64,000 bases of DNA from Methanobacteriaceae archaeon (GTDB lineage: Archaea > Methanobacteriota > Methanobacteria > Methanobacteriales > Methanobacteriaceae), in contig CAAFWR010000123.1 in the NCBI GenBank assembly GCA_900766745.1, positions 23,778 to 87,777 on the forward strand, written 5' to 3'. Under the pieces are notes generated by a model. It was given only the letters and a program-made list of their open reading frames with translations. It was not told the origin of the DNA and did not search any database. Below, in pieces: positions 2,443 through 64,000 of the stretch. A program made the translations under genes and the position numbers. Position 1 is the stretch's first letter. Each line of letters begins with the position of its first letter.

Positions 2443-3929
2443 AAAAGTACTTCAATTTTAATTGGGTTTGGGGACGTAAGAAGGACCCTCCCAAAGATGG
2501 TACCTCCTCTAATAAAGAGCAAAAGCCTACCACTCCGATATCACCCGGTAGGGTTTCAGTTGACGATGATAGCGATAACTTAATCACATCATTACAGGGG
2601 TTGACTAAATTAGTCGAGCCCTCTTTTCGTGTTGATGTAATACCTTTAATCCGAGATTTATATAAAGTAAATCCGGATATGGGCATCGCATTACAAGATA
2701 TGTTTAAGTTAGCTAACACCAGTCATACAGTAACCTTTCCAAACAATACAGATGAAGAGGCTTCTAAGATGAGAGACCATCTTAAAAAGGCCACCAAGGG
2801 ATGGACCCGATATACTGCTGGTATAGATGGTTTAGTTAACAAAATGATTGTTCAACTTCTTGTAAGTGGAGCAATATCTGTAGAGGGAGTTCCCAATGAT
2901 AAACTAGATGGTTTGGCTACGGTATTATTCCTTAAACCTGAATACATCAAGTTTAAACGGGAATTAAATGGTGTGTATCACCCTTACCAAAAGAATCATA
3001 ATTACTGGAATAAGCAACAAGATTACATTAAGCTTAACCCAGAAACTTATTTCTATGTTGGTATGTTTAATGATACAGATGAACCTTATGGAGTCCCTCC
3101 ATTTATGCCTGCATTGGATTCTCTAAAAGGTCAAAATGATATGAAGATTAATTTCAAACATATCATGGAGATTTGCGGTATGGTTGGTTTTCTTGAAGCG
3201 AAAATGCAGAAATCACCACAAAGGTCTAACGAAAGTATAAATGCCTATGAATCTAGACTAAACCGAGAGCTTAATACTTTAAAACGTAATGTTAAGGATG
3301 GCATGAAGGATGGAGTTGTTGCAGGTTATATTGATGACCACGAATTTAAACTCAACTCTACTACTAAAGAGCTTGGTAATATCGAAAAGCCATGGAATAT
3401 GAATCAACAATCTGTGGCTAATGGTTTGGGAGTTAATGGCTCTATCATTGGAGTATCTGCTACTACTGGTGAAGGGGCAACGGGTATAATGCTGTCTAAG
3501 ATGATTAGCCAGTTAAAAAATATCCAAATGCTTGTAGCTTATGTATTAGATAGACTTTATTCTCTAGAACTGCGTCTGGCAGGCTTTAATAATAAGGGAA
3601 TGAAGATTGATTGGGGAACTTCTACAGTTTCTGATGAAGTTAAAATCCAACAGGGTCTTCAGTATAAGATACAGAACCTTGACTTACTGTATAAGGCTGG
3701 TATTATTAGCCAAGAACAGTATGCTTGGGCAATGGGCTATGATTCCCCGGATGAGAAAGAACCAAGAGTTTCATTGGAAGATCAATTTGCTAAAGGTGGT
3801 AATTCAGATCCTCAAGAGGGAACTAAAAAGAAACAAAGGCAGGATGATAAAAACCAATCTGCTCGTAGGTCAAGAGATAAGAATAACCCGGCTCCTTCTC
3901 GAGGAGACCAAAATACTAAACCAAGATGA
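2439..3929 (+). CDS. Portal protein
   Basis: A 496-residue protein translationally coupled to terminase (ATGA overlap) and to the protease after it. Position between terminase and protease, the length, and a central region with long helices followed by a C-terminal polar tail (about 440-496, rich in Lys, Gln and Asn) fit phage portals. The portal forms the twelve-fold ring at one head vertex, the docking point for the motor and later the neck. The N-terminal 40 residues are Pro/Ser-rich and probably disordered. No catalytic motif is expected. The call rests on synteny and general appearance. Confidence 0.85.
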   Translation: MKKYFNFNWVWGRKKDPPKDGTSSNKEQKPTTPISPGRVSVDDDSDNLITSLQGLTKLVEPSFRVDVIPLIRDLYKVNPDMGIALQDMFKLANTSHTVTFPNNTDEEASKMRDHLKKATKGWTRYTAGIDGLVNKMIVQLLVSGAISVEGVPNDKLDGLATVLFLKPEYIKFKRELNGVYHPYQKNHNYWNKQQDYIKLNPETYFYVGMFNDTDEPYGVPPFMPALDSLKGQNDMKINFKHIMEICGMVGFLEAKMQKSPQRSNESINAYESRLNRELNTLKRNVKDGMKDGVVAGYIDDHEFKLNSTTKELGNIEKPWNMNQQSVANGLGVNGSIIGVSATTGEGATGIMLSKMISQLKNIQMLVAYVLDRLYSLELRLAGFNNKGMKIDWGTSTVSDEVKIQQGLQYKIQNLDLLYKAGIISQEQYAWAMGYDSPDEKEPRVSLEDQFAKGGNSDPQEGTKKKQRQDDKNQSARRSRDKNNPAPSRGDQNTKPR

Positions 3930-5443
3930 GTAAATTTACAAAGAAAAACAAAGAGCATCTTGATTCTATGGTGATAGGTCAAGGCCATACCATTATGGCT
4001 GGTTATATACCAGAAGCAGTGGGAGCCCAGACTTTCTCAGAGAATTACTATAAATGGAAGAATCCTACACCGGACTCCATTGCTCAATTCGGATTTTGGG
4101 GAGGGGATATAGATTATAATACCTATTATCCTAACCTGGATAAATCGGAATTAACTCCTAAGGATGAAGAGTTCATTGAACCCATGTTCAGATTACTTTC
4201 GGAAACGATTGTATCTAAGAATTGGAATCCTACAGATTTTGGTCAAAATGGAGTATTGAAAGCTTCTATGAAAATGTTACTTGGTCAAACAGTAAACTGT
4301 GACCATGAAACTAACATAGGTAATGCTATCGGTGCTGTATCTCAGGTAATGTGGCAAGAGTCTTACAAAGATGGAAGCTTCACTATACCTGCAGGTATCA
4401 ACGGTATTCTGAAAATTGATGGTAAAGCCAATCCAAGGATTGCTAGAGGTATACTTATGGAACCACCATCAATTCACAGTAACTCGGTCACAGTACAATT
4501 CAAGTGGGATAAATCACATCCCCAAATGGAGGACAACGAATTCTATCAGAAACTCGGTACCTATGATTCTAAGGGAGTGATGGTACGTAGAATGGTTACT
4601 GAGATAGTTCGTTACCTGGAGACTTCATTGGTATCTCATGGAGCTGATTCTTTTGCTCAAAAAATCGGTTCTGATGGTAAGATTATTAATCCTACTTTTG
4701 CTAAAAGAACTTGGGCATCTTATGAAGAATATAGAGACGATAAATCGAAGCAATACTTCTTTACCGATTATAAATCTGACCTAACTTCTTATCAAGAAAA
4801 GGACGATACTCAAGGTTCTTTTAATGATAATGATGCCAAGGATAATCAATCAAACGAAAAAAATAGTATGAACGAATTAGAAAAATTTCTAGAGAGCCTC
4901 TTCGGGGATAATCTGCTTACCCTTGAGGAAGGTAAAGAAATGAATCAGGAAACAGTAGTTGCCTGTATTCAAAGTTTGGTATCATCCAGAAATGAACTGC
5001 AAACTTCAGTAGATAACCTTACTACAGAGAAGAATTCTCTTACGGAACAGGTTACTAACTTGAATGCAGAAGTGGCTAATCTGAAAGAGATGGCAACTGT
5101 AGGAAAGAATCACATTGCTTCTCTCCGTGAAGATGCAGTAGCAACTTACAAAAAATTGATGGGTGATAATGCTGATGAAACCATTGTTACAATGCTTAAT
5201 GCAGAAACAACTGGTATTACTACTCTTATTTCCTTGACTAAGGATTACCAAGCTCGCTTGGAAGAGAAGTTCCCTCTCACCTGCTCTAAGTGTGGTTCTA
5301 AGGATGTTAACCGTGCATCTTCAGTAACTGAAGATGATACTCAAGGTAAAGAAACTACCGACGGTACAAATACAACCAAGAATTCCGAATCACCGAGTAC
5401 TAAGAATGTGATCGATAATTTGTATCGAAACAAAATTAAATAA
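3926..5443 (+). CDS. Prohead protease fused to a scaffold-like C-terminal region
   Basis: The 505-residue protein has an N-terminal S78-like protease domain (about 10-250). By analogy with HK97 gp4, His127 (NCDHE), Ser187 (NSVTVQF) and Glu232 (LETSLVSHGAD) would be the triad. After a polar linker comes a coiled-coil region (about 345-405), then a CxxC pair at 453/456 and a disordered tail. This is the usual shape of a protease whose C-terminal part acts as scaffold and is later digested. An internal ATG at 4868 (codon 315) could give a scaffold-only 191-residue product, as in lambda C/Nu3. Start overlaps the portal stop. Confidence 0.82.
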   Translation: MSKFTKKNKEHLDSMVIGQGHTIMAGYIPEAVGAQTFSENYYKWKNPTPDSIAQFGFWGGDIDYNTYYPNLDKSELTPKDEEFIEPMFRLLSETIVSKNWNPTDFGQNGVLKASMKMLLGQTVNCDHETNIGNAIGAVSQVMWQESYKDGSFTIPAGINGILKIDGKANPRIARGILMEPPSIHSNSVTVQFKWDKSHPQMEDNEFYQKLGTYDSKGVMVRRMVTEIVRYLETSLVSHGADSFAQKIGSDGKIINPTFAKRTWASYEEYRDDKSKQYFFTDYKSDLTSYQEKDDTQGSFNDNDAKDNQSNEKNSMNELEKFLESLFGDNLLTLEEGKEMNQETVVACIQSLVSSRNELQTSVDNLTTEKNSLTEQVTNLNAEVANLKEMATVGKNHIASLREDAVATYKKLMGDNADETIVTMLNAETTGITTLISLTKDYQARLEEKFPLTCSKCGSKDVNRASSVTEDDTQGKETTDGTNTTKNSESPSTKNVIDNLYRNKIK

Positions 5444-7598: not shown

Positions 7599-8495
7599 AT
7601 GAAAAATAATCTGGACTTTTTGTACGTTACGTCAGGTCTGGAAGTTTCATTCAGAGTCATATCCAAAGTCCCGGCCAAATCTATTTTTGACTGGGACTTT
7701 GGCGATGATAAGGGAGAGGTTTTCAATGGTGGAAGACATGTTTCCTATTCTTATGAAGCTCCCGGTTTCTATACAGTAACCCTACATGTAACTAACTCGA
7801 ATGGTTTAGATATCACCGTAGATAAGACTCTGGTAGTTTGTGATTATGGGCATACGGCATTAGCCGATACAATATATAATTTAATTGACCATTATATACC
7901 ATCAGAAATCTCCGATGGTATGACACGAGAGGATAAATCCATCTACATCACCAAGTGGCAATATTATATTGGACCTCTAGTAAATCATACAATTCCACTA
8001 GATAAATATACTGACGAATTATGGTATGAAGCACTAGAAAACCAATTAATAATGGAATTGGCAGCATGGGATTTTCTTAATGTGAAGATACTTAACTTAT
8101 TAACGAGTACTTCTGAATATTTAAGTCAATTAACTTCTACCAAAGAACAAACCGGTGATGGTACCTCTAAACCTGAACTTGCCCGGGGTGATAGAATTAA
8201 ACAAATCACTACTGGGCCTACTGAAGTGCAATATTATGATACCCTGGCAGATGCTACAAGTTCCCTATGGAAAACACTCTCTCAAGCAATGCAACCTGGT
8301 GGATTAATAGATGAATTAAGAAAGAACCTTTGTATGTTAGCTTCACGGTTGGAAATCTACTTACCGTTCTGCGATGAAGTATTCAGAACTGTAACACCCA
8401 GAGTAGTTAACAGAAGAAAACCTGGTGTATTGGATGGACCAAACCCAAGTGCACCAGTGAAAGGTGGTAATGATTCAATTTTAACTAAGTTATGA
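7599..8495 (+). CDS. PKD-domain protein in the head-tail connector region
   Basis: A 298-residue protein. Residues about 8-85 form a PKD (Ig-like) domain, with the typical WDFGD core at about 27-31, a YSYEAPGFYTVTLHV strand pair and a final LVV strand. The remaining two thirds is helical and unassigned. It overlaps the next gene by ATGA. PKD domains usually bind surfaces or carbohydrates, so this may be an adaptor exposed on the particle or the domain may simply stabilise a neck protein. Neighbours are capsid and tail genes. Confidence 0.7.
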   Translation: MKNNLDFLYVTSGLEVSFRVISKVPAKSIFDWDFGDDKGEVFNGGRHVSYSYEAPGFYTVTLHVTNSNGLDITVDKTLVVCDYGHTALADTIYNLIDHYIPSEISDGMTREDKSIYITKWQYYIGPLVNHTIPLDKYTDELWYEALENQLIMELAAWDFLNVKILNLLTSTSEYLSQLTSTKEQTGDGTSKPELARGDRIKQITTGPTEVQYYDTLADATSSLWKTLSQAMQPGGLIDELRKNLCMLASRLEIYLPFCDEVFRTVTPRVVNRRKPGVLDGPNPSAPVKGGNDSILTKL

Positions 8496-15705: not shown

Positions 15706-17490
15706 ATGGGAGAGATAGCAACCTGGAGTGCTGTCAAAACTAAAGTAGGCCTTGGTAAGACAGGAAATGACTGCCCTACCAAGGCTGAATTGTTAGCACT
15801 CTCCTCGACAGGAACAGGGGAGAATTATGTGGGGTTGGAACTATCCAATGCCAGTTCCTATGGAAATAACGAATGTGTCAAACTCGAAGATATTCATAAG
15901 GTAACCTATAAGTATACTTTTACAGCTATAAATACTTCCTTTACTTTCACTGCTATAGGGGGGGAATCGACTCCAGCTCGATTAGGCTTAACTTCAACTA
16001 AACAAAAGTATTTAGATGGAGTAGTTCATGGTTCTTCTATAGCAGTAGGTCATACCGGAACCCCTTTACCCGACTGGTTAAAAGGTTCTACTGATACGAT
16101 TGGATTTACCGCTACAGAAAATTTAACCCTATCACCAAGAACTCATACTAGAACCTATACCCAGGACGAAACCGGTAAAACGGTCTCGGTTACTTTCACT
16201 CAAGCAGCAGCTTCTCAGTCTTGGAGTTATGGATTTAGTGTAAACCCAACTTCTATGTCTTTTGGGGCTACTGGAGGTACCAAAACCTTTTCTGTAACTT
16301 CATACAAGCAGGAAATTAGAAATGGACATAATTATGGTAGTCAAATTACTCTAACTTATACTAGAGCGAATACTGGTGTCACTGGTACGGGTACTTCTGT
16401 AACTATGTCCAATAATACCTCTACTTCAACTAAGTCGGGTAGTGTAGTATTAACCCAAGCAGAGACCAGTAAGAAGCTAACCATTTCTTGTTCTCAATCG
16501 GCAGGTTATAGAACTTACAGTGAAATTACTGCAAGTGGTGGAGCAGTAACAGATATACCTGCAAGTGGAGGTACTAGAAGTTCATTCACTACCTTACCTA
16601 CATATTCCCAGACCTGGGGATGGAATGGTTCTACAACGGGAGGAGGTACGATTACAAGTGGTGCTAGTATTAGTTATGGTACTGCAGTTAGTGCAAGTTC
16701 TTTGGGAACTACAGTAAAATCTAGAACCCAAGTGGGCACACTTACTGGAACTCTATCATTAAATGGTAAAACTAAATCGGTAAGCATTCCAGTATATCAA
16801 GGAGCTAACGAATTTACTGGTTACACTTATGGTTCATGGGACGTAACCTTAACTGCTAGTTCTTATACTATTGCTAATACTGGAGGTAGTGTAACTTTGT
16901 ACCCAAGTGCAAGTAGACCAAGGTATGCTAACTATACGTCTGGCTCAAGTGTAAGGGATGGTTCTGATACTGCTTCTCCAACTTTGAGTACTAATGGTAT
17001 TTCTGGTTTTACCCTATCTGGTACTACACTTACGGCTTCTAATAATGCTAGTACAAACTCTAGAACCGTTAGAGTTTTTGCCCATTATGGAGGGGCTTCT
17101 GATTATGTAGATATTACTCAAGGTGCTGCTTCCGTAAGTTATAATTACTACTTTTATTGGAATGGTATGGTTACAAGTGAATCTGTTTACCATGCTGCTG
17201 TTGGAGATACTTTATATCGATATTTCTCATCCTTTAAGACAAAAGTAATCAATGGTTCTGAAACTTCAGATATTTATGATGTGGGTGTAAGCTTATCAGG
17301 TGCTCCATCTTGGTCTTCCGTTTCAGCTAGTAGTGGTAAGGTAACCAGTAAAGCTTCAGAAAACGTTGAAGAATCTTCAAGGTCTGCTACGGTTACAGTT
17401 ACACAGAATGAATCAGGTAAGAAGATTACGCTTGTCATTAATCAAAGTGCTGCAACAATTACCTATGAATATGTATTTAATTTGGGATAG
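15706..17490 (+). CDS. Multi-BACON virion-associated protein
   Basis: A 594-residue, Ser/Thr/Gly-rich, low-charge protein. After a 60-residue N-terminal part it has about five BACON-like beta-sandwich repeats of roughly 90-110 residues, each closing with a strand and a Q-S/G-A signature (VTFTQAAA, ISCSQSAG, IPVYQGA, VDITQGAA, VINQSAA). BACON domains in Bacteroidales proteins and phages are thought to bind mucin or carbohydrate. The first residues contain VKTKVGLGKTGNDCP, similar to the VGLGNV tail repeat of the preceding fibre, so it may attach to that fibre. It starts two bases after the fibre stop. Confidence 0.82.
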   Translation: MGEIATWSAVKTKVGLGKTGNDCPTKAELLALSSTGTGENYVGLELSNASSYGNNECVKLEDIHKVTYKYTFTAINTSFTFTAIGGESTPARLGLTSTKQKYLDGVVHGSSIAVGHTGTPLPDWLKGSTDTIGFTATENLTLSPRTHTRTYTQDETGKTVSVTFTQAAASQSWSYGFSVNPTSMSFGATGGTKTFSVTSYKQEIRNGHNYGSQITLTYTRANTGVTGTGTSVTMSNNTSTSTKSGSVVLTQAETSKKLTISCSQSAGYRTYSEITASGGAVTDIPASGGTRSSFTTLPTYSQTWGWNGSTTGGGTITSGASISYGTAVSASSLGTTVKSRTQVGTLTGTLSLNGKTKSVSIPVYQGANEFTGYTYGSWDVTLTASSYTIANTGGSVTLYPSASRPRYANYTSGSSVRDGSDTASPTLSTNGISGFTLSGTTLTASNNASTNSRTVRVFAHYGGASDYVDITQGAASVSYNYYFYWNGMVTSESVYHAAVGDTLYRYFSSFKTKVINGSETSDIYDVGVSLSGAPSWSSVSASSGKVTSKASENVEESSRSATVTVTQNESGKKITLVINQSAATITYEYVFNLG

Positions 17491-42628: not shown

Positions 42629-43216
42629 ATGAAAGGTTTACAATTTTTAGGGAACAGAGTAGAGGATGCAGCTAATGCTTTTATTGACGTCCTCAAGTAT
42701 TCAGACCAGTCAGTAGATTATCCGGATTTTAAGGATATTGAACCTTGGCCTGATGAGATAGTTAATATGTTTTATGTAATTTGGAAGAACGCCAAATTCT
42801 CAGAACTAAGTGCAATCATTATGTATACTCAGCAGTCAACTAGATTTAAAGAGATTTCGGAATTGATGTTGGGTATTGGATTAGTAGAAATGAGACATTT
42901 TGATAAGATATCAGATTTCATACAATTGGCAGACCCTTATGAAGATTACTCTGTAATCAACATTAATCCTACAATTGAAATAGGTTCTACTTGGGAACAA
43001 GCTTTGAAGATTGCCTGGGATTCCGAAATAGAAACTATCGGACACTATAAAAAGATTCAAAAAGCAATTGCTCAATACAATGAACGCCCAGATTATGATG
43101 ATGTGAATTATTTCCTTGAGAAATTGATTGCCGATGAAGAACATCACATTAAACTTCTTAAGGAAGCTTTGGGAGTAGATAAAGGTACTAAGGGAGTAAC
43201 CGTAATCATTAAGTAA
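42629..43216 (+). CDS. Ferritin-like di-iron protein
   Basis: The 195-residue helical protein has a complete ferritin-like metal pattern: Glu59 (SELSAI), Glu87-x2-His90 (EMRH), Glu135 (with Glu133; SEIETI) and Glu170-x2-His173 (EEHH). This layout is shared by rubrerythrins and related di-iron proteins. It may bind iron or manganese, detoxify peroxide, or be a radical-type oxidase; the exact activity is not clear. It starts two bases after the upstream stop. An iron-handling enzyme in a replication operon is unusual for phages. Confidence 0.7.
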   Translation: MKGLQFLGNRVEDAANAFIDVLKYSDQSVDYPDFKDIEPWPDEIVNMFYVIWKNAKFSELSAIIMYTQQSTRFKEISELMLGIGLVEMRHFDKISDFIQLADPYEDYSVININPTIEIGSTWEQALKIAWDSEIETIGHYKKIQKAIAQYNERPDYDDVNYFLEKLIADEEHHIKLLKEALGVDKGTKGVTVIIK

Positions 43217-45854: not shown

Positions 45855-46046
45855 ATGATATGGGCTATGTTCAAGGTATACCTTAACAACCCAAATTATT
45901 TTGTAAAGCAAGGAGACGTACTTGCTAATCTGTGTATGGAAGGTTCTACCGATGTAATTAGAATATGCAATTCATTGGGAGTAAGGGTTTCCAGACCAGA
46001 GAGATTAACCTTTGGACAACTATTAAACAAGTGTAATATATTATGA
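45855..46046 (+). CDS. Small hypothetical protein upstream of dUTPase
   Basis: A 63-residue protein, MIWAMFKVYLNNPNYFVKQG onward. The end overlaps the dUTPase start in ATGA. I start at 45855 because this genome often places ATG one base after a stop; ATG 45840 in the same frame would overlap the upstream gene. No family recognised. Confidence 0.5.
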   Translation: MIWAMFKVYLNNPNYFVKQGDVLANLCMEGSTDVIRICNSLGVRVSRPERLTFGQLLNKCNIL

Positions 46047-46582
46047 ACAGATTTAGATTTATCAAAGTACGGGAGGTAATATCTCCCAACAGAGCAAACC
46101 CAAATGATGCTGGGTTAGATTTTTATGTACCAACTGATTTATACCCAGAGCATATTCATTCTAAAAATGAATTCGACTCCGAAGGTTATGATTTAGATGT
46201 TCCTTTTGGTGAAGTATTTGTAAGACATATAGCTTTAAAACCTGGGCATCGTATACTTATCCCCTCCGGTATCATGGGATTGCTTGAACCCCCCTCATCA
46301 ATGTTAATGGCAGCTAATAAGTCAGGAATTGCTACTAAGCAAGGTCTGATATTTACTGCAGAGATAGTAGATTCCCCCTATGTGGGAGAGATACACATCG
46401 GAGTATATAACACCTCTCAAGAAGTACAAATAATTGAATGTGGTAAGAAGTTAGTACAATTCATACACGTTCCCATTTATATTACGGAACCCAAGGAGAT
46501 TCAACAAGAGGAGTTCTATTCAGAATCTCAAATGTGGGGGAGTAGAGGTAGTAATGGATTTGGTTCATCTCAAAATAGATAG
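46043..46582 (+). CDS. dut: dUTPase (trimeric type)
   Basis: The 179-residue enzyme converts dUTP to dUMP and pyrophosphate. Motif 1 NDAGLD (21-26), motif 2 NKSGIA (92-97; the usual first Arg/Ser is changed to Asn/Lys), motif 3 DSPYVGEIHIGVYN (110-123), motif 4 CGKKLVQFI (133-141) and motif 5 RGSNGFGSS (168-176) are all present. An insertion follows motif 1. It prevents uracil entering phage DNA and supplies dUMP. It ends with TAG. Confidence 0.93.
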   Translation: MNRFRFIKVREVISPNRANPNDAGLDFYVPTDLYPEHIHSKNEFDSEGYDLDVPFGEVFVRHIALKPGHRILIPSGIMGLLEPPSSMLMAANKSGIATKQGLIFTAEIVDSPYVGEIHIGVYNTSQEVQIIECGKKLVQFIHVPIYITEPKEIQQEEFYSESQMWGSRGSNGFGSSQNR

Positions 46583-46585
46583 GCT

Positions 46586-47422
46586 GTGGATATAAGAAAC
46601 ATACGAAAAGAGGTACCCAATGTAGAAAGCAATAAGATACTTTCAAAAATGTACGAATTGGGATTAGAACAATTGAATGGGTATAGGCAAATAGAATCAT
46701 TACCAGAATACCCATTGGATATCAATAACCCAAAAAGCCAAGTTATACTCAAGGATTTTATTGGTAGGGTAATCGAAGAATTAACTGAAGGCTTTGAATC
46801 TACCGATGAGGTATTCGAACTTTGTCAAAAGAAAGGCTGGAATATTGAGATGTTCAATGAAGATGAATGCCAATCTATATTGAATTCCCTTGCTAATGCC
46901 AATGAAGAACAAGCAGATGCTTTAGGCTTTTTCTTTACTCTTCTAGTATATTCAAATATACTTCCTGAAGATATTCTTAGCTATAATAAAGCAAGGAACT
47001 TATTTGAAGTGATGGCTACCGGTGTTAAAGAGCTGGTAATAAAATATCCAGATTATCAGAATTTATTGAAATTTGATATCATTTGTGAAGAGGATTTCTT
47101 TGATGAAGAGGGTAAATGGGAACAGATAATTTCCTATACTCCGGGTTTTCATCAGATGAACGAATTATCACATGAGGCTGAGAAGTTATACTTATGGGAG
47201 GTAATATATGAACTCAATAAAGCAAGGAATTTTCTTAAGTGTAGACCATGGAAACAAACTCAAGTAATGACTAAAGAGATAGATTTCCAAGAATCTTTGG
47301 TAAAGTCATTTTACTTATATATGGGATTCCTTGCATTAAACGGATTTACCGATAAAGGATTGTTTAGTTTATTCTTTAAAAAACAAAGTCTCAATTTATG
47401 GAGACAGACCAGCAATTATTAG
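46586..47422 (+). CDS. All-alpha NTP pyrophosphatase (MazG/dCTPase-dUTPase-like)
   Basis: A 278-residue helical protein with the EExxE...ExxD metal pattern: Glu64/65 and Glu68 (EELTE), Glu108 and Asp111 (EEQADALG). This superfamily includes MazG, dimeric dUTPases and T4 gp56 dCTP/dUTP pyrophosphatase. It lies next to a trimeric dUTPase, so the second enzyme may serve another nucleotide such as dCTP. The start is GTG at 46586, four bases after the dUTPase stop. The C-terminal half (about 185-278) continues as helices that may close the active site. Confidence 0.75.
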   Translation: MDIRNIRKEVPNVESNKILSKMYELGLEQLNGYRQIESLPEYPLDINNPKSQVILKDFIGRVIEELTEGFESTDEVFELCQKKGWNIEMFNEDECQSILNSLANANEEQADALGFFFTLLVYSNILPEDILSYNKARNLFEVMATGVKELVIKYPDYQNLLKFDIICEEDFFDEEGKWEQIISYTPGFHQMNELSHEAEKLYLWEVIYELNKARNFLKCRPWKQTQVMTKEIDFQESLVKSFYLYMGFLALNGFTDKGLFSLFFKKQSLNLWRQTSNY

Positions 47423-47460
47423 TTACTATATTCTCTCCGTGTCTACTATAAAGAAGAATT

Positions 47461-47562
47461 ATGAGATTAAGAAAAATGAATAAATCACAAGCTTATATAG
47501 CAAGTAGAGTAAAATTACATCAGACTGCTATAAGTAAATTTTTGAAAGGAGACTTAGGGTGA
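47461..47562 (+). CDS. 33-residue helix-turn-helix miniprotein
   Basis: A very short frame, MRLRKMNKSQAYIASRVKLH onward, ending FLKGDLG. MNKSQAYIASRVKLHQTAIS followed by KFLKGD matches the core helix-turn-helix of Cro/XRE-type proteins (S..yIA...kl.qtaISkfl.G), without the rest of the fold. It overlaps the next start (GTGA). It may be a minimal regulator, a remnant, or an N-terminal leader. Small size keeps confidence low. Confidence 0.4.
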   Translation: MRLRKMNKSQAYIASRVKLHQTAISKFLKGDLG

Positions 47563-48479
47563 GTGGGTGGAATAAAAAATTAGAGGGACTTCAACTCAAT
47601 ACGGAGGAGTCCCTCCATTCGTTAGAATTTGCTACTTCACAAGAAGCATGGGAAAAACTCAATGAGGGTTTCCTAAGATTAGACCCAATCCTATTTGGGA
47701 AAGGGGCTATTGCTAATAGTGGGGTAGCAGTAGTGTATAATGTATTTATAAAAATACGTAAAGCATGGGTAGACCCAGAATTTGATTATGGGAGATGTTT
47801 CAATTACAAAGAAACTAAGTGGACTAGCTTATTGAATAACTACATAGATTTTAATAAGCTTGACTTGTTGCGTAGTAAACTGAGAGTACTAAGGAATAAG
47901 TACAATCAGAATTACAATATAACCTATATGTTTAACAATCATCATGATAATGGTAAACAATGTCTAATAGCTGCTACATTCTCAAAACGATTTGGGGAAG
48001 ATATACCTGTTATTACAATGGTAATCAGGGCATCCGAAATAACAAAAAGGTTAATCTTCGACTTCTTACTAATACAACGAATGGCGGAATATGTGTACGG
48101 ACCAGAACAATCAGTACAAATCAATTTATTTGCTACTCAAATGTATGGGAATGTAGAGACCCTCTTGATGTATCATACCCATAAACCCTTAAAGAAAGTA
48201 TTAAAAGGGGCAGAAGAAAATTCCTGGAATAAGAGGGTGAAGGAAATATGGAAGAAATTCCAAAAGGGTACCGAGAAAGAATTCTCTTCATTCAAGGTAT
48301 TTTTTAGAAGTTTTAAAGTACTCAGACCTGATTTATATGAGGAAACATATAAATCAATGAAAGCAAAGGAATTACTCCTTGAGTATGAGGATATAGAATA
48401 CCCAGAGAACGTAATTTCTTACTCTCAACGGAAAGCTTATAAAAAGAAACTTTTAAAACAAAAGAACAATGGAAGCTAA
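47559..48479 (+). CDS. Thymidylate-synthase-fold paralogue, divergent
   Basis: The 306-residue protein matches the TS fold by pattern in its middle: Cys135 stands at the catalytic position and RASEITKRLIFD (157-168) at the substrate-binding RSxD...N run. The usual Pro-Cys-His around the nucleophile is lost (GKQCLIA), RSxD is RASE, and Asp168 stands where TS has Asn. The C-terminal part (about 215-306) is a Lys-rich helical extension. It may be an inactive partner of the second TS-family gene at 48678 or act on a changed substrate. Start GTG overlaps the miniprotein stop. Confidence 0.55.
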   Translation: MSGWNKKLEGLQLNTEESLHSLEFATSQEAWEKLNEGFLRLDPILFGKGAIANSGVAVVYNVFIKIRKAWVDPEFDYGRCFNYKETKWTSLLNNYIDFNKLDLLRSKLRVLRNKYNQNYNITYMFNNHHDNGKQCLIAATFSKRFGEDIPVITMVIRASEITKRLIFDFLLIQRMAEYVYGPEQSVQINLFATQMYGNVETLLMYHTHKPLKKVLKGAEENSWNKRVKEIWKKFQKGTEKEFSSFKVFFRSFKVLRPDLYEETYKSMKAKELLLEYEDIEYPENVISYSQRKAYKKKLLKQKNNGS

Positions 48480-48663
48480 GGAGTTTTTAAATCAGAAGCG
48501 TATAGGATTGGTAAACAGATTCTATTACCAAATTTTAGGGATTAAAAAGAAAGGTGCAGAACCAGATATACCCTTGTTAATGAAAGAGGTAGAGGATTTT
48601 GATGATTTTGTATCTCGCTACTGGAATATGACCTGGGATAATTTTACAATGTCGTACAATTAA
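48469..48663 (+). CDS. Small hypothetical protein between the two TS-fold genes
   Basis: A 64-residue protein overlapping the TS-fold paralogue by 11 bases and ending 14 bases before the second TS-family gene. It has a basic N-terminal helix and an acidic, aromatic C-terminus (FDDFVSRYWNMTWD). Its place suggests a subunit or accessory of the two flanking enzymes; no family recognised. Confidence 0.55.
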   Translation: MEAKEFLNQKRIGLVNRFYYQILGIKKKGAEPDIPLLMKEVEDFDDFVSRYWNMTWDNFTMSYN

Positions 48664-48677
48664 ATATTTATATTATC

Positions 48678-49433
48678 GTGAGGATTTATAGTAATTCTTT
48701 TGAGTTAATGTCGGAGATGGGCAGAGAACTCAACAGTTATGGTCAATTGGTAAAACCAAAGACCTATCAGAATAAAGTAATTGAAGGTAAGGAGGAGTTT
48801 GAAACAAAAGAACTCATTTGCCAACAATATTGCTTAACCTCATTGGGAGACCCAGTATGGTTGTTTGTATTCTCCCATTCAAAGGAATGGGCAGATGCAG
48901 AGTTTAAAGAGAGGATTGGTTGGTATGAATTAAACCCAGGTAAAGCTTGGGAACTAAGAAAAGATTTATGGGAACAGTTTTTGGTAAAGGGTAGATTTGA
49001 TTATACCTATCCAGAACGTATTTGGAGTCAACTTAGTCCCTTCAATAGTGATATGGCTTTACAAGCAGTTATTGAATTACTCAAAAGAGATAATGATACT
49101 CGTAAGGCAGTACTCCCTATATTTCATGGTACAGACTTAAGATTCCTTGATGGGAGTAAACGTATCCCCTGTTCTATGTATTACGATTTTCTTATCCGTC
49201 AGAATGGTAAAGGAGAGAAGGTATTACATATCTGCTATCATCAAAGAAGTTCTGACTTTGTTACCCACTTTGGTAATGATGTATACCTTGCATGGAGACT
49301 TATGGAATACGTAGCTCAAGAAGTTGGTATTAAACCAGGTTACTTATACCATACCATTGATTCTCTTCATTCTTATAAGAAAGATTGGTTAGCATTAGCA
49401 TCTAATCTGGAAGACTTACAAGAGAAATACTAA
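48678..49433 (+). CDS. Thymidylate-synthase family enzyme, possible dCMP hydroxymethylase
   Basis: A 251-residue enzyme. Pro164-Cys165 (KRIPCSMYYDFLI) holds the catalytic Cys; QRSSDFVTHFGNDVYLAW (189-206) corresponds to the TS substrate-binding run; D228SLHSY233 matches the DxHxY region. Counting from the Arg of RSSD, position 12 is Asp201, where TS has the conserved dUMP-selecting Asn. Asp here is the known difference in T4 dCMP hydroxymethylase, so the substrate may be dCMP. Products could be 5-hydroxymethyl- or 5-methyl-dCMP; a divergent TS remains possible. The start is GTG. A terminator follows. Confidence 0.72.
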   Translation: MRIYSNSFELMSEMGRELNSYGQLVKPKTYQNKVIEGKEEFETKELICQQYCLTSLGDPVWLFVFSHSKEWADAEFKERIGWYELNPGKAWELRKDLWEQFLVKGRFDYTYPERIWSQLSPFNSDMALQAVIELLKRDNDTRKAVLPIFHGTDLRFLDGSKRIPCSMYYDFLIRQNGKGEKVLHICYHQRSSDFVTHFGNDVYLAWRLMEYVAQEVGIKPGYLYHTIDSLHSYKKDWLALASNLEDLQEKY

Positions 49434-49439
49434 TAATGA

Positions 49440-49475
49440 GGGATGTATCTACTACGGGTGGGTATGTCCCTTTTT
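49440..49475 (+). terminator. Intrinsic terminator after the TS-family gene
   Basis: GGGATGTA (49440-49447) and TATGTCCC (49463-49470), with two G-T pairs, are followed by TTTTTCTATTTT. It lies six bases after the stop and closes the nucleotide-metabolism operon before the polymerase. Confidence 0.85.
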
Positions 49476-49487
49476 CTATTTTAAAAT

Positions 49488-51818
49488 ATGGAGACACGGT
49501 ATACAATAATAAAAAACAAGAGAGAGCTTAAAAAACTTATTGCTTGTTGTAAAGCTACAGGTTATGCTTGCTGTGATTATGAATCAAATGCAGAACCAAT
49601 TTATAATAAAAGTTTTAAGCCAACTATACTCTCGGTATCTTGGATGCCAGGATTTGGTGCTTCTATTCCCTTAGACCATTTCCAAACAAAAGAATACACT
49701 TCACCTGGATGGAACTGGAAGAAGATGTTAAGGAAATTTGGGGAAGAAGTAATTGAGAATTATGATATTGTAAAGGTTGCATGGAACTGGAAATTTGATG
49801 ATCAGATTAACCAGAAGTATAATATCTATTATCGAGGTACATGCTTAGATGGGATGCTTGCCAAATATGTTCTCAATGAGGAAAAACCACATGATTTAAA
49901 GTCAATGGTAAGAAGGTATCTACCCGAACATGGAGACTATGAAAAGCAAGATGCTTTTGATAAAATACCATGGGATAAAAAAGAATTAGACCCATTATGT
50001 CACTACGGATGTCAAGATACAGATTATACTCTTCGGTTAATGCTATTCTTCGAAAAGAAATTGATGGACTTGGGTATGTATTCAGTATTCCGTAATTTAT
50101 TTATGTGTAATTCACGAGTACTCACATCAGTAGAGAAGGAGGGATTATATCTAGATACTGAGTTCAATAAAAAGCTTTTGGAAGAATATAAACCAAAAAT
50201 AGATGCTGCTAGACAAGCCATATATGACTTGCCAAGAGTAAAGAAGTTTACCGAGAAATATAATCAAGGTAAAATTGAAAGATATATAGAATCTATTGAG
50301 GCTGAACTAGAAGAATTAGATTATAATGACCCAAAAGATAAACGCAAGATTGATTCAAGGGAACAGAAAATATCGAATATTCGTGCAGGAGTATTTACTA
50401 CTAAGAAAGAACAGGACCTTATAAGACCCATTAACCTGGGTAGTACGAAGGATTTACCTGAACTTATGTATTCCGAAAGGGGTTTTAAATTCCCAATTAT
50501 CAAATATACTGTAGATAGTAAAACTGGTAAACAAACCGATAGACCAAGTACTGATGAAGAAACTCTCATTAACTTAAGATTAACGGTTAAAAATCAAGAT
50601 TCACCTAAGGCAGTATTTCTTGATAAACTTCTTGAATTAAGAGGTTTACAGAAAATGTATACTACATATATAGAAGGTTGGCATGAAAAAGTTCAGGATG
50701 ATTCTCGATTACATGGTAGATATAATATACATGGTACTGACTCTAATCGGTTTAGTTCTGCAGACCCAAATATGCAGCAGATACCTAAGACATCAGTAGA
50801 TCCAAATATTAAGAAACAATTAGTAGCTCCCAAAGGTTATCTATATATGGCTTTTGACTATTCCCAAGCAGAGTTAAGAATGATGGCTCACCTATCCGGC
50901 GATGAAACCTATTTGGAAGCTTTTGCTAAGGGAGTAGATCCACATCTTGGTATAGCAGCAGCAAAATATGGGGTATCAATTGAAGAGGCAAGTAAAGCTT
51001 ACGAAGATGAAAGTCATCCAGATCATAAACTTTGGAAGATGAGGAGAAAGCAAGCTAAACAAATTGCATTTGGACTTATTTATGGTATTGGAGACGCTTT
51101 ACTAGCAGTAAAATTATCCGACCCAAAAGCTGGTATTATAGTTACTAAAGAAGAAGCCCATAAAGAAATGGATGAGTTCTTTAAGAAACATCCAAAGATA
51201 CTTAAGTTTAAAGAGAAACAAGAGAAATTTTTACGTAAGCATGGGTATTATACCCAATTATTTGGTACTAAACGAAGACTCCCACAGATATATTCAAATG
51301 ATAAGCAAGAAGTTGCTTATGCCATTCGTTTAGGTCTTAACTTCCCATGTCAAGGTGCTGCAGCAAATATGACTAATTTTGGAGCTATCCTTGTTTATTG
51401 GTTAATGAGACAAGGTAAATTACCAATGATGAAAGAGGCTTGTACAGTACATGATGCTGTATATATGTATTCTAAACCTCAAGATATTAACACATGGACT
51501 GTATATACAATCTGGAATATCCTACGTAACCCAAGTACAAAAAGATATTTCGGATTTCAAGTTGATGATGTAACTTTATCAATGGATTTTACTATTGGTA
51601 GGTCAATGGCAGAGGAATTACCTTTTATGCCAGGTTACGATTATACTAAAATGTTACAACCAGATTTTTCAGTAGATGAGTATATGGAAGAATACCATAA
51701 GCTTAAGACTCATAAAATTGGAAATTTTAGTGCTGCTTCGCCTGAGGTATTTATGGAACTCTATAAAAAGGAAATCCATAAATATCAACAAGAATATGAA
51801 AAATCGAGAAAAAGGTAA
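49488..51818 (+). CDS. DNA polymerase, family A, with 3'-5' exonuclease
   Basis: The 776-residue polymerase copies the genome. Exonuclease motifs: CDYESN with Asp30 and Glu32, WNWKFD (Asp104), Y173-x3-D177 (YGCQD). Polymerase motif A: AFDYSQAELR with Asp457; motif B RKQAKQIAFGLIYG near 519-533; motif C reads VHDAV with Asp656 and Ala657 in place of the usual Glu (HDE). Both palm aspartates are present. A Lys-rich insertion (about 255-310) occurs between the two halves. No 5'-nuclease domain; that is a separate gene downstream (55524). Confidence 0.93.
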   Translation: METRYTIIKNKRELKKLIACCKATGYACCDYESNAEPIYNKSFKPTILSVSWMPGFGASIPLDHFQTKEYTSPGWNWKKMLRKFGEEVIENYDIVKVAWNWKFDDQINQKYNIYYRGTCLDGMLAKYVLNEEKPHDLKSMVRRYLPEHGDYEKQDAFDKIPWDKKELDPLCHYGCQDTDYTLRLMLFFEKKLMDLGMYSVFRNLFMCNSRVLTSVEKEGLYLDTEFNKKLLEEYKPKIDAARQAIYDLPRVKKFTEKYNQGKIERYIESIEAELEELDYNDPKDKRKIDSREQKISNIRAGVFTTKKEQDLIRPINLGSTKDLPELMYSERGFKFPIIKYTVDSKTGKQTDRPSTDEETLINLRLTVKNQDSPKAVFLDKLLELRGLQKMYTTYIEGWHEKVQDDSRLHGRYNIHGTDSNRFSSADPNMQQIPKTSVDPNIKKQLVAPKGYLYMAFDYSQAELRMMAHLSGDETYLEAFAKGVDPHLGIAAAKYGVSIEEASKAYEDESHPDHKLWKMRRKQAKQIAFGLIYGIGDALLAVKLSDPKAGIIVTKEEAHKEMDEFFKKHPKILKFKEKQEKFLRKHGYYTQLFGTKRRLPQIYSNDKQEVAYAIRLGLNFPCQGAAANMTNFGAILVYWLMRQGKLPMMKEACTVHDAVYMYSKPQDINTWTVYTIWNILRNPSTKRYFGFQVDDVTLSMDFTIGRSMAEELPFMPGYDYTKMLQPDFSVDEYMEEYHKLKTHKIGNFSAASPEVFMELYKKEIHKYQQEYEKSRKR

Positions 51819-55531: not shown

Positions 55532-56396
55532 GAAAACAATATTATTGATTGATGGGGAAAATATTCTACACCAATCTTTCCACAAGTTCGAAAAACTTAA
55601 ATCTACGGATGGAAAACCAAGTGGGGCAATATTCGGATTTTTTAAATCACTACATATGTACCTTACAAGGTTTGAACCGGATGATATTTATATATCATTT
55701 GATAATGGTCATTCTCCAGTAAGGATGGAGTTACTGCCTAACTATAAGGAGCATAGGAAAAATATCTCAGTAGATTATGAATCATTGCAAAAGCAAAAGG
55801 CAATCATAATGAAAATGCTGGGTATGCTAAGAATTAATTATATATTCGATAAAAAGAAATCCACAGTATATGAGGGAGATGATTTCTTAGCATACCTTGC
55901 AATTAAAAAATTCCAATCTGAAAAAATGATATTAATATCATCAGACAAGGATTTTAATCAGTTATTATCAAACAACTTAAGGATATATAATCCAAGAAAG
56001 GATGAAATGATAAGGATGGATAATTGTAAAGAGTTATTCGGATATCATTCTCATGAGACGGTAGAATATCTTGCAATGGTTGGAGATACTTCTGATGATA
56101 TACCTGGGTTTCCAGGTATTGGGCCAGTAAAGGCAAGGAAAATCCTTGATGAGGGTAGGATTGAAAAATTCATTGCTCACAGTAAAAATAAAGAATATCT
56201 TCAGATATGGAAAAGGAATGAGCAATTGATTGACCTTTTTTGGTTTGTAAGACATAATCCTTTAAAGGAATTACCTGTAAAATCAAAAAGACAGTTCAAA
56301 TATGAGAAATTCAAGAAAGTATGTATCGAATACTCTTTAGCATCTTTCTTGACAAATGAATTTATAAAACCATTTAAAGAATTACATCATGAGTAA
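55524..56396 (+). CDS. 5'-3' exonuclease, flap/RNase H-like
   Basis: A 290-residue PIN-type nuclease. Asp10 (LLIDGEN) starts the active site; YEGDDFLA, SSDKDFNQLL and VGDTSDDIPGFPGIGP (the helix-three-turn-helix of the FEN/T5/T4 RNase H family) follow. It removes primers and flaps during lagging-strand synthesis and suits a polymerase that lacks this domain. The start is the ATG within the RecA stop. Confidence 0.88.
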   Translation: MSKKTILLIDGENILHQSFHKFEKLKSTDGKPSGAIFGFFKSLHMYLTRFEPDDIYISFDNGHSPVRMELLPNYKEHRKNISVDYESLQKQKAIIMKMLGMLRINYIFDKKKSTVYEGDDFLAYLAIKKFQSEKMILISSDKDFNQLLSNNLRIYNPRKDEMIRMDNCKELFGYHSHETVEYLAMVGDTSDDIPGFPGIGPVKARKILDEGRIEKFIAHSKNKEYLQIWKRNEQLIDLFWFVRHNPLKELPVKSKRQFKYEKFKKVCIEYSLASFLTNEFIKPFKELHHE

Positions 56397-56976
56397 AAGA
56401 ATAATGTTTGTAGGTCCTTCTGGTATAGGGAAAACTACTTTAGCACAATACGTGGCTAAATCACAAAATATCCCTTTCATATCAGGTAGTATGTCAGATT
56501 TATTGCCCGCTACTAAGGATATATCACATAATGAAATACTCTCTTTGGGTTCAGAGGCAATGTATAAATCAGATTTTCAACTTCTGAATTTGAGGAACAA
56601 ATTATTTAAGGATAGAGAATACTTTGTAACTGATAGGAGTTATGCAGACTTGGCTGCTTACTTCTGGTATAAGCAATCAAGAAGTATTCCAGAGTGTGAA
56701 ATGGAACACTTCCTATGTCAGTGTAAAACATTAATGGAAGAACAATGTGACTTGGCAATCTTCTTACCTTTGAATTTGTATACTTACCAGAACTGGCAAA
56801 TGGAAAACAATGGTAAGAGAATACTAAACAGATTTTTTCAAGTTCAGATATCCTCACTCATGAGTGAATTACTTGCAAATTGGGAAATATCTACTGCTTG
56901 TATATCAGAACTTGATTTAGAGATGAGAATAAAACAAATAGATTACCATCTTGATAGGATATGGGGAAAGAAGTAA
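56389..56976 (+). CDS. P-loop nucleotide kinase-like protein
   Basis: A 195-residue protein with a perfect P-loop, FVGPSGIGKTTLA (7-19), and a DRSYADLAAY run (about 81-90), common in deoxynucleoside and nucleotide kinases. It could phosphorylate a (modified) dNMP, but AAA_28-type and NadR-like proteins have similar motifs, so the substrate is open. It starts in an overlap with the exonuclease stop and ends inside the gp47-like start. Confidence 0.65.
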   Translation: MSKRIMFVGPSGIGKTTLAQYVAKSQNIPFISGSMSDLLPATKDISHNEILSLGSEAMYKSDFQLLNLRNKLFKDREYFVTDRSYADLAAYFWYKQSRSIPECEMEHFLCQCKTLMEEQCDLAIFLPLNLYTYQNWQMENNGKRILNRFFQVQISSLMSELLANWEISTACISELDLEMRIKQIDYHLDRIWGKK

Positions 56977-63757: not shown

Positions 63758-64000
63758 ATGGCTAAGAAGAAAAAAGAAGTGGAACTGAAAGAAGTTTCCA
63801 GAACAGAAATTAATGGTGCAATTATCATCAAGTATGAAGATGGCTCAGTAAAAATCATCCCGGCTCCAATTACCTTGACCGCTGAAGAAGCTGAAGACCT
63901 CTTTGGTGCTGAATCCGAGGAAGAAGAAGAGGAAGAAGAAGAGGAAGAAGAAGAGGAAGAAGAAGAGGAAGAAGAAGAGGAAGAAGAAGAGGAAGAAGAA
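63758..64000 (+). CDS. N-terminal part of a protein with a poly-glutamate run (cut by window end)
   Basis: A partial frame of 81 codons, MAKKKKEVELKEVSRTEING onward. The first 53 residues form a basic-to-beta domain with IIIKYEDGSVKIIPAP, then LTAEEAEDLFGAESE leads into a run of only Glu up to the window edge. Its true length and end are unknown. The preceding 39 bases are AT-rich and could hold a promoter. The codon use (GCT, CCG, ACC) is more GC-rich than neighbours and resembles the capsid gene, suggesting strong expression or a structural role. Confidence 0.65.
   Translation, partial: MAKKKKEVELKEVSRTEINGAIIIKYEDGSVKIIPAPITLTAEEAEDLFGAESEEEEEEEEEEEEEEEEEEEEEEEEEEEE
63917..64000 (+). repeat. 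Tandem 12-bp repeat coding for poly-Glu
   Basis: Seven exact copies of GAGGAAGAAGAA run in frame from 63917 to the window edge, and may continue. Such a perfect tandem array is prone to slippage, so length variants between isolates are expected. Confidence 0.9.

Follow-up and report, generated by a model that had tools for sequence, protein, structure and literature searches.

Several members of the thymidylate synthase (TS) superfamily act on cytosine nucleotides. In the deoxycytidine monophosphate (dCMP) hydroxymethylase of phage T4 (gp42, T4dCH) and in the CMP 5-hydroxymethylase MilA, an Asp at the pyrimidine site is described as selecting the cytosine base (PMC6400193, PMC5175136), and an Asn-to-Asp swap in TS as changing the substrate from deoxyuridine monophosphate (dUMP) to dCMP (PMC8670742, PMC6400193, PMC5175136). 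A second informative position lies three residues before the catalytic Cys (C-3). According to PMC6400193, hydroxymethylases carry Asp, sometimes Glu, at C-3, TS carries Leu, the T4 D145N variant gives no product, and T4dCH functions without the long C-terminal tail. The MetaGPA survey links Asp at the pyrimidine site to contigs of phages with modified cytosine, on which TS co-occurs with the pyrophosphohydrolase family PF01503 and dCMP deaminase (PMC8670742). Here, we describe a TS-family enzyme of a gut phage, encoded at 48678 in a 64,000-nucleotide stretch of contig CAAFWR010000123.1 (the window), together with a second predicted TS-fold protein encoded upstream of it at 47559 (the partner) and adjoining nucleotide metabolism genes.

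This module is real, widespread and conserved, and we put the probability that it makes C5-modified dCMP before replication at about 0.55. A preliminary description had placed a nucleotide pyrophosphatase next to a TS-superfamily enzyme of the dCMP type, and this pairing is supported; the paired TS-fold protein is a new element of the module, absent from that description.

The 48678–49433 protein matches PF00303 (E 2e-13) and phrog_160 (E 1e-28) and has the superfamily's fold, catalytic Cys, RSxD and HxY. The catalytic Cys165, the RSSD run and the Asp201 at position 12 from the Arg that had been read from it are confirmed: Cys165 lies within RIPCSMYY, RSSD spans residues 190–193, and C165, R190, D193 and D201 are unvarying in all 19 aligned clade sequences, the window counted in, so this residue pattern is not due to chance. 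The clade comprises 1420 proteins at E ≤ 1e-3, the best 120 of which are 76–89% identical. The alignment to T4 gp42 and ThyA that the preliminary description had called for places Asp, not Asn, at the pyrimidine-reading site. Asp201 replaces the Asn of thymidylate synthases (EcTS 177), T4 gp42 puts its own Asp at this position (RSNDVVFGFRND; HHalign), and HMMER alignments bring the Asp of MilA and of the phage dCMP hydroxylase AfhB to it. Among more distant relatives, fetched as the best 80 of 568 found, all 79 that could be parsed have Asp here. The best structural matches of the enzyme are dCMP/CMP hydroxymethylases or hydroxylases. We designate the enzyme dCMP-type: its Asp201 falls on the Asp by which T4dCH, MilA and AfhB select dCMP or CMP, and the alignments strongly suggest that dCMP is its substrate. 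By alignment, Glu78 and Tyr111 would be candidate counterparts of Glu58 and Tyr94 of TS.

Examination of position C-3 separates the enzyme from the described hydroxymethylases. The residue is Arg162, constant in 19/19 aligned clade sequences, and a pattern count finds Arg in 79 of the 80 distant IMG/VR relatives (the 80th reads GRVPC). All seven distant phage records of one alignment and Huwbert gp67 likewise have Arg. The controls carry Asp (T4 gp42, two proteins of Bacteroides phage BF503P1, and SPO1 gp29), Glu (PSTCR6), Asn (DoCa6) or Leu (ThyA and Huwbert gp68); the automated comparison gave no parse for SPO1, MP1412 and LuckyBarnes, and SPO1 was read from its HHalign alignment. Arg thereby joins the C-3 residues already seen: Leu in TS, Asn in the Xp12 group, Asp in hydroxymethylases and Glu in the 5-hydroxylase type. 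The two BF503P1 genes encode different dCMP-type TS-family proteins and have a dUTPase gene between them (L053:819-1625 and 3698-4378). We built a tree from 65 chosen rows (the window, eight gut sequences, eight named phages, 12 partnerless loci, 26 of the 64 partnered loci and 10 controls), using 281 of 797 alignment columns. The 55 Arg-type rows fall on one side of a branch and the 10 controls on the other, with a Shimodaira–Hasegawa-like approximate likelihood ratio test (SH-aLRT) value of 98; many control branches are long.

By the published C-3 rule, the enzyme is thus probably no T4-type hydroxymethylase, since the Asp/Glu of that rule is an invariant Arg; it is probably no thymidylate synthase either. 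The likeness to T4dCH drawn in the preliminary description therefore holds for the Asp at the pyrimidine site and fails at C-3, and we consider with moderate confidence that simple 5-hydroxymethylation is not performed. The best-surviving alternative is nevertheless a plain T4-type dCMP hydroxymethylase whose product is built into DNA as 5-hydroxymethylcytosine, with the C-3 Arg a neutral drift and the partner a regulator. T4 gp42 shares the TS fold, catalytic Cys, pyrimidine-site Asp, RSxD and short tail with the window enzyme, and the structural matches fit as well. However, the Asp145 that T4 requires at C-3 is Arg in 19/19 and 79/80 sequences, which points to a fixed replacement, not drift. 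T4 encodes a pyrophosphatase of the dUTPase/dCTPase type as well (gp56); no TS-fold partner is mentioned for T4 in the texts consulted. We regard the hydroxymethylase alternative as unlikely, while noting that it is not fully exclusive of a module for C5-modified dCMP: the two depart at just two points, the trapping step and the role of the partner. MilA (5jnh, 5b6d) shares the pyrimidine-site Asp; unlike the window enzyme it has Asp at C-3, and its ribose pair is Lys133/Ala176 instead of Arg142 and Ser191.

The C-terminal tail and the folate site bear on the chemistry. The long tail of TS serves the reductive step. Arg-type enzymes have a median of 12 residues after HxY/F (range 4–35; 53 of 55 rows), and the window enzyme has 18 after Tyr233 by hand count. 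Tails are also short in T4dCH (28), BF503P1_45 (17) and PSTCR6 (11), and long in two canonical TS (54 and 55, the latter ThyA) and in DoCa6 of the Xp12 group (61); no value was obtained for SPO1 and MP1412, and the 292 returned for LuckyBarnes is improbable. DoCa6 represents the Xp12 group by kinship, as its closest named relatives, Bosa and Xoo-sp2, belong to the genus of the 5-methylcytosine phage Xp12 (PMC9206674); DoCa6 itself is at most a putative maker of 5-methylcytosine. Its gp56 shares the pyrimidine-site Asp with the window enzyme and is encoded next to a dCMP deaminase, but has Asn at C-3 in addition to the long tail, and no partner is named among its annotated neighbours. The pterin-binding Asp of TS (EcTS Asp169) is retained as Asp193 in the window enzyme and lost in the AfhB type. 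Folate use is therefore likely, and we hold with moderate confidence that the donor would be methylene-tetrahydrofolate.

A dCMP methylase is less probable still. Such an enzyme would make 5-methyl-dCMP, either built in as 5-methylcytosine, as in Xp12, or diverted to deoxythymidine monophosphate (dTMP) through dCMP deaminase. dCMP deaminases accept 5-methyl-dCMP, and a deaminase gene occurs in 14 of 18 Arg-type phage records. Moreover, the PDB entry that the distant Arg-type profile matches best by sequence is 1njc, the Lactobacillus casei TS with N229D, a substitution that reportedly turns TS into a dCMP methylase. Against this, the long TS tail is missing, though the Xp12-group enzyme keeps one, and 11 of the 18 records encode ThyX or a canonical TS besides the Arg-type enzyme. 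ThyX is present in 10 of the 18, among them one of the gut clade's four, the L009 record; in Microbacterium phage Huwbert the Arg-type enzyme adjoins a canonical thymidylate synthase (L057:3770-5415). All 14 deaminase-bearing records lie outside the gut clade, where one search found a deaminase in 0/4 records and another in 0/5; a deaminase route to dTMP was accordingly rejected for that clade.

We consider it improbable that the enzyme is a flavin-dependent dCMP 5-hydroxylase like phage AfhB (9iqu, 9iqc) or the 5-hydroxy-dCMP synthase of Mosigvirus. These too are phage dCMP enzymes, and AfhB is the closest solved chain by sequence and ties with MilA by fold; however, the AfhB type combines Glu at C-3 with RSQN, in which the pterin Asp is lost (9iqu, with PSTCR6 as a second example), whereas RSxD persists in the Arg type. 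Ordinary thymidylate synthesis, as annotated and as printed for phage Azira, whose operon is termed a thymine synthesis operon (PMC10353413), is very improbable: PF00303 membership and linkage to dUTPase and kinase genes agree with it, but Asp201 in place of Asn, the short tail and the separate thymidylate genes (ThyX or ThyA) lead us to set it aside.

The partner is encoded just upstream of the TS-family gene in 23 of 24 clade loci from IMG/VR, some of which are short or near-duplicates. Of 80 further Arg-type loci, 64 also include a homologue, and two metagenome-assembled genome contigs have one as well. Because of this linkage, the gene order strongly suggests that the partner acts in the same pathway as the 48678 enzyme. 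The first structural match of its predicted model is the TS superfamily, MilA (5jnh, 5b6d) is the best Foldseek match for both proteins, the partner keeps a Cys, Arg and Asp motif of its own, and purifying selection on it was detected. Two tandem partners occur in three of the 24 IMG/VR loci, in L025 and in three phage-collection records of the clade. Searches of the phage collection with three partner queries returned 85, 18 and 3 records, RefSeq copies counted; a search of plasmids found no homologue, and a scan of viral contigs with the Serbin partner gave no match with patterns that were overly specific.

The same two linked proteins recur in many unrelated phages, whose hosts include Gordonia, Mycobacterium, Streptomyces, Serratia, Yersinia and Brevundimonas, in the order kinase, dUTPase/MazG, hypothetical protein, TS, (deaminase), PolI. 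In HHalign comparisons with these operons, the window partner scores 96.9% and the TS-family enzyme 99.1–99.8% (six of seven). Azira carries a homologue of the partner gene by the phage-collection search, a comparison that covered that gene. Unlike these operons, the gut clade lacks the deaminase in the records searched and has tandem partners in some loci.

We propose that the 48678 enzyme would bind dCMP via Asp201, that Cys165 would attack C6, and that a one-carbon unit would be added at C5, probably from methylene-tetrahydrofolate, given the kept Asp193. The resulting exocyclic methylene intermediate would probably not be reduced to methyl, because the enzyme lacks the long tail that canonical TS and the Xp12-group control have. 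Trapping of the intermediate would be unlike that of T4, since Arg162 sits where hydroxymethylases activate water. The partner may form a complex with the enzyme or act on its product, and the pyrophosphatase may remove a competing normal deoxynucleoside triphosphate. Possibly, although we hold it doubtful, the Arg-type enzyme and its partner form a two-protein TS that, with its members acting singly or as a heteromer, places on C5 of dCMP a substituent that is none of methyl, hydroxymethyl and hydroxyl. Arg162 might, for instance, direct a nucleophile that is not water onto the exocyclic methylene intermediate, or the partner's own Cys might re-activate the first product at C6 and exchange its C5 substituent.

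Several observations weigh against a module for C5-modified dCMP. Tail length is an imperfect marker: 47 residues follow the motif in BF503P1_40, whose C-3 residue is Asp; this weakens the tail argument and lowers our confidence in this explanation. Dihydrofolate reductase is found in 0/18 Arg-type records and also in none for the DoCa6 control, so this test does not discriminate. The partner profile matches no TS chain in the PDB, and profile–profile comparisons of partner and TS give 1.3% and 13.6%, which is not significant; the partner's kinship to TS would thus derive from the predicted model and motif spacing. Of the 77 distant loci whose sequence extends past the TS gene, 13 show no partner, which is therefore not obligate; a record search of the partnerless cases, run with no positive control, found none. 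Finally, a DNA C5-methylase family gene is present in 4/4 gut-clade records and 0/14 other Arg-type records, which argues against complete cytosine replacement and suggests that part of the cytosine stays unmodified.

In the gut clade, the C5-methylase gene lies at L138:4682-5677 and in the records of L006, L009 and L013; in MT121964 it stands shortly 5′ of the terminase gene, a place outside the window. A C5-methylase-like gene (phrog_116) also occurs close upstream of partnerless Arg-type TS genes (L114:3399-4655, L123:3842-4963 and L131:3440-4723), where it may possibly replace the partner functionally. In two other partnerless loci (L119:3890-4954 and L134:3789-4955), an IMPDH/GMP-reductase-like gene lies directly 5′ of the TS gene.

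For the virions, the preliminary description had predicted modified cytosine, and we retain this with moderate confidence. It had seen no glycosyltransferase in the window, and none is found among the open reading frames (ORFs) scanned, which are part of those in the window. PF00535, the one glycosyltransferase family searched in the relatives' records, is found in 0/5, and the carbamoyltransferase family PF02543 in 0/18 Arg-type records. A literature search, with Lee 2025 and Mahler 2025 outside its scope, found no phage with the enzyme pair whose base composition had been measured.

The trimeric dUTPase proposed at 46043 is confirmed, and a homologue is found in 14 of the 24 clade IMG/VR loci. 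The pyrophosphatase at 46586, present in 22 of 24, falls below the PF08761 cut-off of 22.9 bits, yet has the EExxE..ExxD metal site (E64, E65, E68, E108 and D111, constant in 18/18 aligned sequences) and the C-terminal signature of all-alpha nucleoside triphosphate pyrophosphatases. Compared with the pyrophosphatases of other operons as a set, it scores 98.6% (E 1e-15); singly, four of eight match at no less than 96% and the other four fall short of that. The all-alpha assignment thus stands, and the suggested kinship to T4 gp56 covers only the last 56, C-terminal columns (HHalign probability 71%). The pyrophosphohydrolase of the MetaGPA contigs is PF01503, whereas this one is of the PF08761 type. 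The reasoning by which the presence of two dUTPase-type enzymes would prove that dCTP is a substrate is set aside as a matter that sequence cannot decide; many all-alpha pyrophosphatases act on dUTP. The proposed nucleotide kinase (56389–56976) has a P-loop and is weakly thymidylate-kinase-like, and is at most a candidate. Only its P-loop resembles the operon kinases of other phages, and a T4 gp1-like identity was rejected on the same ground.

Features of the interval and its surroundings in the window
Feature	Position	Strand	Basis
Trimeric dUTPase	46043..46582	+	PF00692 54.8 bits; phrog_135 E 7e-21
All-alpha (dimeric dUTPase type) nucleotide pyrophosphatase	46586..47422	+	PF08761 21.5 bits (sub-threshold); phrog_12184 E 5e-18
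33-amino-acid (aa) small ORF, helix-turn-helix-like by eye	47461..47562	+	Sequence; TGA overlaps GTG of partner gene
Partner: second predicted TS-fold, dCMP-type protein, 306 aa	47559..48479	+	Cys135, Arg157, Asp168
64-aa ORF between partner and TS-family gene	48469..48663	+	Sequence
Arg-type (RIPC) dCMP-type TS-superfamily enzyme, 251 aa, GTG start	48678..49433	+	Cys165, Arg162, Arg190, Asp193, Asp201, His231, Tyr233, 18-residue tail
Terminator-like hairpin, 16 pairs, T-rich tail, directly 3′ of TS-family gene	49438..49472	+	Pattern match only
PolA-type DNA polymerase after hairpin	49488..51818	+	Read from sequence alone, no profile scan
P-loop NTPase, candidate nucleotide kinase	56389..56976	+	phrog_2107 thymidylate kinase E 2e-8

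The overlap of the 33-aa ORF with the partner gene may possibly reflect translational coupling. The 64-aa ORF has no phmmer match in loci L001–L035. Terminator-like hairpin patterns number nine in the region, against 4.4 ± 2.0 in shuffles.

Outside the interval, the window is phage. PHROGs matches identify terminase, major head protein, tail sheath and DnaB-like helicase genes, and Pfam matches a gp32-like protein and a 5′–3′ exonuclease; a near-identity search of the last 24 kb against phages found no match. Two proteins, one with a PKD domain and one BACON-like that falls just short of the cut-off, are encoded at 7599–8495 and 15706–17490. Such domains are associated with Bacteroidetes hosts, and these proteins give a hint of one here. 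An open frame at 63758–64000 enters a long unbroken poly-glutamate stretch at the window end. A ferritin-like/rubrerythrin-like protein is encoded at 42629–43216 (PF00210, 5e-7; PF02915, 2e-5); among gut Bacteroidetes phages, ferritin-like proteins of the DPS and manganese-catalase kinds have been described (PMC8008677).

Sequenced phages of Gordonia, Mycobacterium (Muddy), Streptomyces, Serratia, Yersinia and Brevundimonas thus carry, under the annotation of thymidylate synthase, a TS subfamily that is predicted to act on dCMP and is usually accompanied by a second, mostly unannotated TS-fold protein. If the proposed module operates as described, phages that have already been isolated would carry an unrecognised cytosine modification, which would bear on their sensitivity to restriction and other defences. 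Should the enzyme and its partner install a C5 group of another kind, the virion DNA of many phages annotated with a thymidylate synthase would contain a cytosine not described before, the product of TS-fold enzymes working in tandem.

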